Origin: Plantibacter flavus
GTDB lineage: Bacteria; Actinomycetota; Actinomycetes; Actinomycetales; Microbacteriaceae
Length of the DNA: 64,000 nucleotides
Assembly (NCBI RefSeq): GCF_900177615.1
Contig: NZ_FXAP01000004.1
Span: forward strand, 1-64,000
Reading direction: 5' to 3'
Shown piece by piece: positions 39,898-54,203 of this stretch; within the stretch, counting starts at the first letter, position 1, and the number at the start of each line of letters is the position of its first letter. Below the pieces are notes generated by a model. That model made no database searches. It was not told where the DNA came from and saw only the letters and a program-made list of their open reading frames with translations. Position numbers and translations under genes: made by a program.

Positions 39898-39957
39898 GTC
39901 CGTTCGCCCATCTTCGGGCGAACGAGGGCTCCGTCGCCCGAAGATGGGCGAACGGAC
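39898..39957. repeat. Palindromic repeat element, copy B
   Basis: Perfect 24-bp arms (39898-39921 and 39934-39957) enclose a 12-nt loop ACGAGGGCTCCG. The element begins 7 bp after trpS and faces convergent glpK. Each arm itself contains CGTTCGCCC and GGGCGA in inverted order, so a cruciform is also possible. Confidence 0.9.
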
Positions 39958-39964
39958 CACGACA

Positions 39965-40000
39965 GAACGGCCCGCCCTCCGCGAGGAGGACGGGCCGTTC
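39965..40000. terminator. Hairpin after glpK
   Basis: GAACGGCCCG and CGGGCCGTTC pair perfectly over 10 bp, continuing after one mismatch into CCTCC/GGAGG around a GCGA loop. It lies 13 bp beyond the glpK stop in the convergent gap, beside repeat copy B. Confidence 0.7.
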
Positions 40001-40013
40001 CGGTCGGTCGGGA

Positions 40014-41528
40014 CTACTGCACGTCGTCGTCGACCCAGTCGAAGGTCTTCGTGACGGCCTTCTTCCAGTTGCGGTAGAGGCGGTCGCGCTCTGCGGAGTC
40101 CATGTTGGGCTCCCAGCGCTTGTCCTCCTGCCAGTTCTTCGCGAGGTCGTCGAGGTCGGACCAGAAGCCGACGGCGAGACCGGCCGCGTAGGCCGCGCCG
40201 AGCGCCGTGGTCTCGGCGACGACCGGCCGGATGACCGGGACGCCGAGGATGTCGGCCTGGAACTGCATGAGCGTGTCATTGGCGGTCATGCCGCCGTCGA
40301 CCTTGAGCTCCGTCAGCGGGACACCCGAGTCGGCGTTGACGGCGTCGATGACCTCGGCCGTCTGGAACGCGGTCGACTCGAGAGCGGCCCGGGCGATGTG
40401 GCCCTTGTTGACGTAGCGGGTGAGCCCGACGAGCGCACCGCGGGCGTCCGGACGCCAGTACGGTGCGAACAGCCCGGAGAACGCCGGCACGAAGTACGCG
40501 CCACCGTTGTCCTCGACGGTCTTGGCGAGCGCCTCGACCTCGGGAGCGGAGGAGAACATGCCGAGGTTGTCGCGCAGCCACTGGACGAGCGAACCGGTCA
40601 CGGCGATCGAACCCTCGAGCGCGTAGTGCGGCTTCGCGTCGCCGAGCTTGTAGCCGAGCGTCGTCAGCAGACCGTTCTCGGAGTGGACGATCTCCTCACC
40701 GGTGTTGAAGATGATGAAGTTACCGGTGCCGTAGGTGTTCTTGGCCTCGCCCTGCTGGAACGCGGCCTGACCGAAGGTCGCCGCCTGCTGGTCGCCGAGG
40801 ATGCCGGCGATCGGCGTCTCGCGGAGGAGGCTGTCGTCGGACGCGTGGCCGTAGATCTCGGAGGAACTCTTGATCTCCGGGAGCATCGACTTCGGGACGC
40901 CGAACGCCTTGAGGATCTCGTCGTCCCACTGCAGGGTCTCGAGGTCCATGAAGAGCGTGCGCGAGGCGTTGGTGACGTCGGTGACGTGCACGCCGCCGTT
41001 GACACCACCGGTGAGGTTCCAGATGACCCAGCTGTCGGTCGTGCCGAAGAGGAGGTCGCCCGCCTCGGCCTTCTCGCGAGCACCCTCGACGTTCTCGAGG
41101 ATCCAGACGATCTTCGTACCCGAGAAGTAGGTCGCCAGCGGCAGGCCGACGGTCTTCTTGAAGCGCTCGACGCCACCGTCCGCAGCGAGGCGGTTCACGA
41201 TGTCCTGCGTGCGCGTGTCCTGCCAGACGATCGCGTTGTAGACGGGCTGACCGGTGGTCTTGTCCCAGACGACGGCGGTCTCGCGCTGGTTCGTGATGCC
41301 GATGGCCGCGATCGCGTGCCGGGTGATGTTGGCCTTGCTGAGCGCCTGGCCGATGACCTCGCGGGTGTTGTTCCAGATCTGGTTCGGGTTGTGCTCGACC
41401 CAGCCGGCCTTCGGGAAGATCTGCTCGTGCTCGAGCTGGCCCGTCGAGACGATCGATCCGCTCTTGTCGAAGACGATGGCCCGGGAACTCGTCGTCCCCT
41501 GGTCGATTGCGATGACGTAGTCCGCCAT
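40014..41528 (-). CDS. Glycerol kinase
   Basis: A 504-residue FGGY-family kinase forming glycerol-3-phosphate. Motifs: [18 protein letters not shown] (phosphate loop), [40 protein letters not shown] and the C-terminal [22 protein letters not shown]. Length matches the family. ATG at 41528 follows AAGGAG. It is the last gene of glpD-glpF-glpK, 101 bp after glpF. Confidence 0.97.
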
Positions 41529-41629
41529 TGGATACTCCTTCGTTGCGTGCGTTGCGAGGTGAGGCACCGGAACCGGTACCCCGGGGTGCCGCGGCGGTGA
41601 TCGTGTCCGGTCACCGCCGCAGCGTCAGG

Positions 41630-42382
41630 TCAGACGGCCGGGAGCAGCACCATCGAGGCGAGAGCCGCGAGGACACCACCGAGCAGGGGGCCGACGACCG
41701 GCACCCAGGCGTAGGACCAGTCGCTCTTGCCCTTGCCCTTGATGGGGAGGAGGGCGTGGGCGATGCGCGGACCGAGGTCACGTGCCGGGTTGATCGCGTA
41801 GCCGGTCGGGCCACCGAGGGAGGCACCGATACCGACGACGAGCAGGGCGACGGGCAGGGCGCCGAGGGCTGCGAGTCCCCCGGGGACGCCCTCGATGACC
41901 ACGGCGTCGGGGCCGGTCTTGCCGAAGGACATCACGACGAAGACGAGGACGAAGGTCGCGATGACCTCGGTCACGAGGTTCCAGCCGTAGCTGCGGATCT
42001 CCGGGCCGGTCGAGAAGACACCGAGCTTCTTGCCCGGGTCCTCCTCCTGGTCGAAGTGCTGCTTGAAGGCGAAGTACGTCAACACGGCACCGATGAAGGC
42101 ACCGACCATCTGCGCCGCCCAGTAGACGAGCGCCGTACCGAAGTCGATCGAGCCCGTGGTGAGGAAGCCGATCGTGACGGCGGGGTTCAGGTGTCCGCCG
42201 GAGGCGTAGGACACCGTGACACCGGCGAAGACCGCGAGGCCCCAGCCGAAGTTGATGAGCAGCCAGCCGCCACCCAGGCCCTTGGATTTCGTGAGGATCG
42301 CCGTGGCGACCACACCGGTACCGAGGAGGACGAGCATCGCCGTCCCCACGGTCTCGGAGAGGAAGATGGTTCCGAGGTTCAT
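41630..42382 (-). CDS. Glycerol uptake facilitator (aquaglyceroporin)
   Basis: A 250-residue MIP-family channel with six membrane helices. Both half-helix motifs are intact: GGHLNPAVTIG and YAINPARDLGPR. The Asp after the second NPAR and the open-pore residues favour glycerol over water conduction, in agreement with its place between glpD and glpK. It starts 147 bp after glpD. Confidence 0.95.
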   Translation of the reverse strand: MNLGTIFLSETVGTAMLVLLGTGVVATAILTKSKGLGGGWLLINFGWGLAVFAGVTVSYASGGHLNPAVTIGFLTTGSIDFGTALVYWAAQMVGAFIGAVLTYFAFKQHFDQEEDPGKKLGVFSTGPEIRSYGWNLVTEVIATFVLVFVVMSFGKTGPDAVVIEGVPGGLAALGALPVALLVVGIGASLGGPTGYAINPARDLGPRIAHALLPIKGKGKSDWSYAWVPVVGPLLGGVLAALASMVLLPAV

Positions 42383-53009: not shown

Positions 53010-53014
53010 CGTCG

Positions 53015-53074
53015 GTTCATTCGCCCATGTTTGGGCGAACGAGTGCTCCGTCGCCCAAACATGGGCGAATGAAC
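53015..53074. repeat. Palindromic repeat element, copy C
   Basis: Perfect 24-bp arms (53015-53038 and 53051-53074) enclose ACGAGTGCTCCG. Compared with copy B, four positions of the left arm differ and each is matched by the complementary change in the right arm. It lies in the 69-bp gap between convergent genes. Confidence 0.9.
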
Positions 53075-53078
53075 GGGG

Positions 53079-54041
53079 TCACGGGCGCCATCCTGCCGCG
53101 ATGAGGCGCTCGCGCGCTCGGTCGACCGCGACGGCGGCACCCGCCTGCAGGTGATGTGCGAGGAAGCGGTCGTGGGACCATCCGAGTCTGGTGACGGCAT
53201 GGATCCGGTCGACGTCCTTCGCGAACTGACCCGGGTCGGTGGCGTGCTGGCGCCCGTCGTACTCGAACGCTGCGCGATACGCCGGGTAGGCGAGGTCGAG
53301 ACGTGCGATGAATCTCCCCCAGCGATCGCGCAGTTCGTGATTGAGCACCGGCTCCGGGAGACCGGCGCGAACGAAGGCGAGTCGGAGTTCCGTCTCCTTC
53401 GGCGATTCGGAACCAGCGCGGATCTGCGGGAGTGCGGCACGGAGTGCCCCCGCGCCGACATGACGGGATCCACTGAGCGCCGCTGCGAGGTCGTCGAGCG
53501 AGCAGAGCGCTGGAAGGCGCTGGTGGAGCCAGCGCCCGGAGGCACCACGCTCACGGACCAGATGATCTCCGACCGCGACCAGCTCATCGATGTTGAGACT
53601 CGGTCCGAGCTGGCACCACATGTCGGCGGGACTCACGACCGCGAGCCTCTCAACGAGGATCGGATCGCCGAAGAGGCCCGCCAAGCGATGGCCGACGACC
53701 CCGGCGACCCTGGGCGCTCGGTCCGGCGGCCGGACGCCGACATGCACCTCGTCCCAGCGCAGCCGCGCCGGGAGCGGAGCATCCAGGAGGTGCGCGGCCG
53801 ACAGGTGCGAGAAGAACTGCGCCGGTGCCATTCGCTGGGCGTACGCCCGACACAGCTCCAGGTGCGCGAGATGACGATGTTCGGGAGGCAGGTCCGCTCC
53901 CCTGCGCGGTGCAGCGAAGCTCCGAACCCCCGGGAACGGTGCTGGAACACGCGTCGTGCGGAGGCGCTCCGGAGAGACGCCCTGCTCCAACGCCGAGCGG
54001 ACGGAGAAGGCTTGGTGATCGGGTAGATCAGTCGGCGTCAT
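53079..54041 (-). CDS. DUF559/Vsr-like endonuclease-fold protein, second copy
   Basis: A 320-residue paralogue of the protein at 15605-16522. The same order is seen: an N-terminal region with PERLRTTRVPAPFPGVRSF, a VVSPADMWCQLGPSLNIDEL segment, SPKETELRLAFVRAGLPEP, then the DUF559-like domain with IARLDLAYPAYRAAFEYDGRQH (candidate acidic residues) and GWSHDRFLAHHL. Function is not established; AbiEi-like antitoxin and endonuclease roles are only suggestions from fold resemblance. No toxin gene accompanies it. ATG at 54041 is plausible. Palindromic repeats flank it on both sides. Confidence 0.75.
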   Translation of the reverse strand: MTPTDLPDHQAFSVRSALEQGVSPERLRTTRVPAPFPGVRSFAAPRRGADLPPEHRHLAHLELCRAYAQRMAPAQFFSHLSAAHLLDAPLPARLRWDEVHVGVRPPDRAPRVAGVVGHRLAGLFGDPILVERLAVVSPADMWCQLGPSLNIDELVAVGDHLVRERGASGRWLHQRLPALCSLDDLAAALSGSRHVGAGALRAALPQIRAGSESPKETELRLAFVRAGLPEPVLNHELRDRWGRFIARLDLAYPAYRAAFEYDGRQHATDPGQFAKDVDRIHAVTRLGWSHDRFLAHHLQAGAAVAVDRARERLIAAGWRP

Positions 54042-54140
54042 GCTTCGATCGTCGCGCGATCGGTCGGTCCGCGACCGGCGCGCCCTCCTCGCATCGACCT
54101 ACCGCCGCGATCTCCGGCCTGTGGAGCGTCCTGGTCGCCG

Positions 54141-54203
54141 GTCCGTTCGCCCATCTTTGGGCGCACGAACCTCCATTCGCCCAAAACTGGGCGAATGGAG
54201 GAC
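54141..54203. repeat. Palindromic repeat element, copy D (degenerate)
   Basis: The left half 54141-54164 matches copies A and B closely, but the right half (54176-54203) has diverged, leaving mismatches. It sits between pckG and the downstream DUF559-type gene, the only copy not between convergent genes. Confidence 0.8.

Follow-up and report, generated by a model that had tools for sequence, protein, structure and literature searches.

The region analysed here, referred to as the window, comprises 64,000 nt of the Plantibacter flavus genome (RefSeq assembly GCF_900177615.1, contig NZ_FXAP01000004.1, positions 1 to 64,000), and it contains four large palindromic elements, A to D, that lie next to the 3' ends of genes. 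Element A (28212..28272, arm cores 28217-28236 and 28247-28266) is located between a plus-strand gene ending at 28204 and a minus-strand gene ending at 28276, and element B (39898..39957, arm cores 39903-39922 and 39933-39952) between trpS (plus strand, stop codon at 39890) and glpK (minus strand, stop codon at 40014). Element C (53015..53074, arm cores 53020-53039 and 53050-53069) separates an ATP-binding cassette (ABC) transporter gene (plus strand, stop codon at 53009) from a DUF559-type gene (minus strand, ending at 53079), and element D (54141..54203, arm cores 54146-54165 and 54176-54195) directly follows the phosphoenolpyruvate (PEP) carboxykinase gene (minus strand, stop codon at 54209), upstream of the DUF559-type gene. 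The elements themselves carry no strand assignment.

Direct reading of the sequence bore out most of what a preliminary description of the window had reported about these elements. A, B and C occupy convergent gaps, and D is positioned between two minus-strand genes. B and C (24 + 12 + 24 nt each) have fully paired 24-bp arms and the loops ACGAGGGCTCCG and ACGAGTGCTCCG, respectively, and their arms differ at four positions, every one of which is complemented on the opposite arm. A and D have the same layout, with a loop mismatch and a bulge in A and with poorly pairing arms in D, which folds into two separate hairpins, not into a long one. In the inverted-repeat listing for the window, B, A and C are the top three entries, and D is not among the 25 listed; the RNA folds of all four elements have z values of −6.8 to −10.1 relative to dinucleotide shuffles. 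The four elements are confirmed as real and as members of a repeat family.

The extent of this family was determined with a sequence-only profile made from 16 copies of the host, P. flavus, and applied to the host genome and to the genomes of relatives. The host genome contains 31 two-arm copies (62 strong profile rows over the two strands). Each of six other Plantibacter genomes gave 20-51 profile rows at E ≤0.01, both strands counted, and 9-22 two-arm copies per genome were retained, a number that does not include all weak or one-arm profile matches. Altogether, 135 two-arm candidates, minus three chance matches and four members of one flank group (group 14) that form a different single long hairpin, yielded 128 copies; two of these, with arm spacings of 36 and 32, were left out of the column counts, which are based on 126 rows (124 distinct). 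At an E value of 0.01 the profile had no match in 33 non-Plantibacter relatives, 18 of them from other genera of the same taxonomic family. The exact two-arm pattern was sought in 84,980 species genomes, a collection that may omit the host or very near genomes, and was present in 33 stretches, all from three Plantibacter records. The one-arm pattern TCGCCCN6GGGCGA occurs at 62 places in the host genome, compared with one for the reversed control pattern, which exceeds chance expectation, and among the places listed three are outside two-arm elements. A search with element B as sole query retrieved nothing from plasmids or phages, and the exact two-arm pattern is missing from viral contigs; on this basis, we reject known plasmids, phages and viral contigs as carriers. 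A described RNA family is ruled out as well: at the gathering score of Rfam, the only match is a flavin mononucleotide (FMN) riboswitch elsewhere in the window, and the elements give sub-threshold matches to unrelated families.

The copies were mapped relative to gene ends. According to the gene calls of a simple codon-usage script (which shortened the gene at 53079-54041, so that its distance between D and the gene start is wrong), all 128 copies are intergenic: 66 are found between convergent and 62 between tandem genes, and none between divergent genes. The corresponding numbers for the 31 host copies are 15, 16 and 0. For comparison, 20 stretches of 20 kb each were sampled from one relative (G004); their gaps of ≥60 nt comprise 28 convergent, 112 tandem and 55 divergent ones (n = 195), and the difference from the host elements corresponds to Fisher p-values, here as elsewhere a guide only, of 5e-5 for the convergent and 2e-4 for the divergent class. 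The median distance from the stop codon to the arm core is 12 nt over 194 stop-side flanks, and a stop codon is found within 30 nt of 119 of the 128 copies. The folds are strong, with a mean of −0.65 kcal/mol per nt and 98% of them below −0.5. A stable hairpin closely 3' of a stop codon, as expected for an intrinsic terminator, is therefore present. Among the element-free gaps of 50-160 nt in G004, an equally strong fold was observed in 8 of 10 convergent, 14 of 91 tandem and 0 of 23 divergent gaps.

The inner inverted repeat that the preliminary description had noticed in each arm was also found throughout the family: each arm is itself a palindrome, TTCGCCC-N6-GGGCGAA, and this gives the elements a second fold. 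The minimum-energy folds of 126 copies, calculated for the plus strand, comprise 77 long hairpins, 48 pairs of hairpins and one other fold; for the other strand, the numbers are 73, 50 and three. The fold type at one site can vary between species. Co-variation was analysed with one random copy per site for 41 sites. Loop bases pair across the arms in 66.5% of the cases versus 56.2% expected (mean z 4.4). For the flanks, pairing within the hairpin of their own arm amounts to 59.4% versus 52.5% expected (mean z 4.1). Arm edges show a slight excess within arms (mean z 2.2), outer flanks no clear excess across arms (mean z 1.0), and pairing falls short of expectation between the edges of the two arms (mean z −1.4) and in the linker (mean z −2.4). 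Loop co-variation is indicative of the long hairpin and flank co-variation of two hairpins; thus, the copies are split between two alternative folds. The observed pattern would be expected both from selection on pairing and from template switching within the palindromes.

Not all copies are inverted repeats of their arms. By a simple purine/pyrimidine rule, 86 of the 126 copies are inverted, 15 are direct, five are inverted in the opposite sense and for 20 the result is ambiguous, and fully complementary loops, as in B and C, are found in only 25 of the 126. Copies with unpaired arms, which the preliminary description had named beforehand as evidence that would speak against it, do exist, namely the directly repeated or unpaired arms of the host copies C7:96315 and C7:222889. 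Selection on the long hairpin alone is ruled out by such copies together with the two folds. In two relatives, both arms of a copy are identical direct repeats, loop included (G003:C9:209634 and G002:C1:2318138), as expected from duplication of, or conversion between, arms.

The preliminary description had proposed that the structure, not the sequence, is selected, and this view could not be maintained. Over the 24 core positions of 126 copies, 35 of 3,024 places are off consensus, and two of these 35 are compensated on the partner. In 195 orthologous pairs, divergence is 1.7% in the core, 25% in the loops, 21% in the linker, 12% in the near flank and 23% in the outer flank; the 700-nt stretches flanking the elements have diverged by 6.8%. 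Among the changed core pairs, one of 74 is compensated if arm-to-arm pairing is assumed and 0 of 79 if pairing within arms is assumed. As a control, we used 17 ordinary gene-end hairpins from the host loci, 15 of which have an ortholog (37 comparisons). Here, 14 of 48 changed pairs are compensated (counts over orthologous pairs not being independent of each other). On average, these ordinary stems have diverged by 5.5%; if only the 35 clearly homologous comparisons are considered, the value is 2.5%, and 8 of 21 changed pairs are compensated in these. Hence, the core is distinguished from ordinary stems by the lack of compensation and not by the rate of change, which is close in both; the letters themselves, and not only the pairing, are kept.

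The arm spacing is constrained as well. It is exactly 30 bp in 126 of the 128 copies, and it differs in 10 of 205 orthologous pairs, all of which can be traced to the two elements with spacings of 36 and 32. In contrast, the stretch between the stop codon and the core (13 nt on average) changed in length in 46 of 266 comparisons, so that length changes per nt are about 13-fold less frequent within the element than in the stop-side flank. The constraint on sequence and spacing exceeds the needs of a hairpin, and protein binding would fit it. Accordingly, the elements could possibly be sites for a sequence-specific DNA-binding protein, with two palindromes whose centres are 30 bp, or about three helical turns, apart and are occupied by a pair of dimers, the hairpin being secondary; as parts of the same, rather unlikely, explanation, the sites could act as a two-way roadblock, as a nucleoid anchor, or as the target of a recombinase or transposase. 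In addition to the almost invariant, uncompensated core and the fixed spacing, the two arms of every host copy (31/31) and the A+T-rich loops (74%, versus 32% in the linker) favour this explanation. However, no candidate protein was identified, one-arm copies persist in other species, and none of the 128 copies lies in a divergent gap, where operators would be expected; a role as promoter operator is ruled out by this placement. Furthermore, the excess pairing of flanks within arms and of loops across arms, and a placement that tracks transcript ends, are at odds with it, and the small difference between 1.7% core divergence and 2.5% in homologous ordinary stems speaks against a simple sequence constraint.

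The histories of individual sites indicate that the elements turn over, yet most sites are shared: 31 of 41 are common to at least two genomes. At C7:141691, two genes meet at overlapping stop codons in six relatives, whereas the host sequence contains a cleanly delimited additional segment of about 73 bp that includes the element. Occupied and empty states at one position, as known for miniature inverted-repeat transposable elements (MITEs), are thus found at this site; no target-site duplication is evident by eye at its junction, the single clean case. At C2:354705 the element is present in the host only. At C7:222889 the host carries the element, and its place at this junction is taken by another strong hairpin in all six other species, that is, elements and other hairpins are exchanged. 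Site A has a two-arm copy in three species, a one-arm copy in two and no copy in the remaining two, and the copies of some species at two additional sites have only one arm and are 30 bp shorter. At site B, G002 and G005 have a one-arm copy that is partly decayed. In G001, G004 and G006, an unrelated segment of about 1.3 kb that has inserted between trpS and glpK interrupts the site; it starts within the left arm (L240:2060-3450 in G004, also L242 in G006 and L243 in G001) and contains a minus-strand gene (L240:2151-3050). The insertion also holds three places of a different palindrome, CAACTCCTGC..GCAGGAGTTG.

A Y1 (IS200/IS605-type, PF01797) transposase was found in none of the seven Plantibacter genomes, with control matches in 5 of 14 named genomes. 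The proposal that the elements are mobile and akin to repetitive extragenic palindromic (REP) sequences or MITEs was therefore upheld in part: they are REP-like, extragenic, strand-symmetric and located at 3' ends, and one site with an occupied and an empty state exists, but present-day mobility is not supported, as most sites are shared and no Y1 transposase was found in the seven genomes. The copy at C7:141691, cleanly absent from six relatives, and the host-only copy at C2:354705 would also be in line with functionless relics or passengers of a mobile palindrome family, for which gene ends are harmless insertion sites and template switching produces the matching of the arms. The flips of arm orientation and the identical direct arms agree with such an origin, and REP dimers elsewhere, which have the same placement, are regarded as mobile in PMC3733652. 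Nevertheless, we regard it as very improbable that the copies are without function, because the core is about 14 times less divergent than nearby intergenic positions in the 195 orthologous pairs. The inspected orthologous gaps mostly contain intact, one-arm, replaced or absent elements and few decayed two-arm copies, although detection by the conserved core introduces a bias here, and neither the transposase nor a plasmid, phage or viral carrier was found.

The DUF559/Vsr-like endonuclease gene (53079..54041, minus strand) is bracketed by C and D. At a threshold of 1e-3, neither Pfam nor NCBIfam gave a match for its product itself, and its relatives are annotated as DUF559. A gene of this type is present at the C-D position in six of seven species, split over two frames in G005; G004 lacks the gene as well as C and D, in place of which a 39-nt gap with a one-arm hairpin is found (L267:9900-9990). 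Palindrome-bracketed DUF559-type genes were considered as movers of the elements, a link that is based on a single locus. The only other match to the DUF559-type hidden Markov model (HMM) in 1.66 Mb of partly overlapping loci is at 15605-16627 of the window and is not bracketed by the palindrome family; this HMM also has no match in the gene that three species carry within the site B insertion. The second DUF559-type gene, at 15605-16627, is on the minus strand and is associated with an unrelated inverted repeat at 16581-16633.

No earlier description of such repeats in Plantibacter was found in the open literature, as judged from bibliographic records. The family resembles the REP dimers of the GTAG and CGTC super-families which, in PMC3733652, are described as small palindromes mostly arranged in inverted (head-head) dimers that fold separately or as one large stem-loop and mostly occupy convergent or unidirectional gaps, no more than 20 bp from 3' ends. 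Paired palindromes, the placement at gene 3' ends and folding into one or two hairpins are shared features. That source lists the GTAG super-family for Proteobacteria, Cyanobacteria, Chloroflexi and the Planctomycetes-Verrucomicrobia-Chlamydiae (PVC) group and the CGTC super-family for five other phyla, and it includes CGTC families without a dedicated transposase and REP families of 20-100 units or fewer. Unlike in GTAG REPs, GTAG or CTAC is present in 0 of 126 Plantibacter copies (flank and inner segments were checked), and unlike in CGTC REPs, CGTC or GACG is found near the arms only in minorities, at most 15 of 126 per segment; furthermore, the arm spacing is fixed at 30 bp and the host is an actinobacterium, in contrast to both super-families as far as they are covered there. 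REP doublets forming hairpins (REPINs), related bacterial interspersed mosaic elements (BIMEs) and REP-associated tyrosine transposases (RAYTs) are the subject of PMC3116915 and PMC2817692, in which REPINs and RAYTs are defined. By the standard of these sources, the Plantibacter elements are likewise extragenic doublets of inverted palindromes with doublets commoner than singlets, but with 9-31 two-arm copies per genome versus usually more than 100 for REPINs. Unlike RAYT-linked REPINs, most sites are shared between species, and the absence of the Y1 transposase (0/7 genomes) rules out a RAYT-driven REP system. As the copies are not characterised by the GTAG or CGTC tags and no Y1 transposase was found, the family is REP-like only as paired extragenic palindromes.

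With bidirectional intrinsic terminators, as outlined in PMC5381666 and PMC1852404, the elements share a strong hairpin just past the stop codon that is two-way between convergent genes; unlike these, they have one sequence at many places, no U-tract and uncompensated core changes. The paired DNA uptake words of Neisseria and Pasteurellaceae that form terminators (PMC1852404) are similar in being a conserved word in inverted pairs at gene ends, but such words generally number at least 1,000 per genome, and an uptake sequence is ruled out because the 62 one-arm places are too few.

Taken together, we favour, with a probability of roughly 0.6, the interpretation that these are Plantibacter REP/BIME-like paired palindromes that act at gene 3' ends on both strands, as a two-way hairpin that is a terminator or a guard of mRNA ends. 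The existence, distribution, placement and symmetry of the family, the constraint on its arms, the co-variation of loops and flanks and the exchange with other hairpins are documented above; we infer both the effect on transcription, via RNA polymerase, or on RNA stability, via exonucleases, and the way of spreading. Transcription from either side would yield one long hairpin or two adjacent hairpins right after the stop codon, and the element would occupy the place where these genomes otherwise have an ordinary terminator-type hairpin. The hairpin would halt RNA polymerase or, after termination further downstream, block 3'-exonucleases and thereby set the mRNA end; between convergent genes, one element would serve both messages. 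The spread of the family may date back to the common ancestor of the species sampled, or to an earlier time, and the elements would today be inherited mostly vertically, with loss of copies, loss of single arms and rare new copies.

Several observations weigh against this interpretation. The core is conserved as sequence, beyond pairing alone, and the arm spacing is more fixed than a free hairpin loop or linker would need. A U-tract is lacking: TTT is absent from the 12 nt after the stem on the plus strand in all 126 copies, and the T fraction 3' of the elements is 0.14 (mean of both strands) versus 0.24 after the 17 ordinary hairpins of the same loci. At C7:141691, at C2:354705 and, in two species, at site A, relatives have no element at all at the same junction. 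Next to element B, an ordinary terminator-type hairpin (39965..40000, no strand assigned), which is also found beside glpK in G002, G003 and G005 and with the same sequence before glpK in G004, could do the same job. A further reading, which seems improbable to us, is that the elements are paired operator-like sites at which a DNA-binding protein of Plantibacter is positioned between gene ends and forms a sequence-specific two-way transcription roadblock or insulator; the hairpin would then be a second layer, and the protein may derive from the enzyme once responsible for the spread of the family.

Two further observations concern the window and one of the relatives. The FMN riboswitch mentioned above is located at 45478-45639 on the plus strand of the window, with a score above the Rfam gathering cut-off. 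In the G006 chromosome (dnaA at 391), the third opposite the origin, 1.54-2.90 Mb, contains no two-arm element and the remainder contains 22 (largest-gap p of about 0.006, assuming independent sites); the element-free third may reflect the conserved gene order near the origin.

The family extends a known kind of bacterial repeat by a new relative and does not constitute a new kind of system. With it, a plant-associated actinobacterial genus of high G+C content has a REP/BIME-like family of its own, in which the arm spacing is fixed and copies are orthologous between seven species. The sequence of the arms, the pairing of the loops and the spacing evolve in clearly different ways here, so that an old question can now be put to the test, namely whether gene-end repeats are kept for RNA ends, are kept for protein binding, or merely survive.

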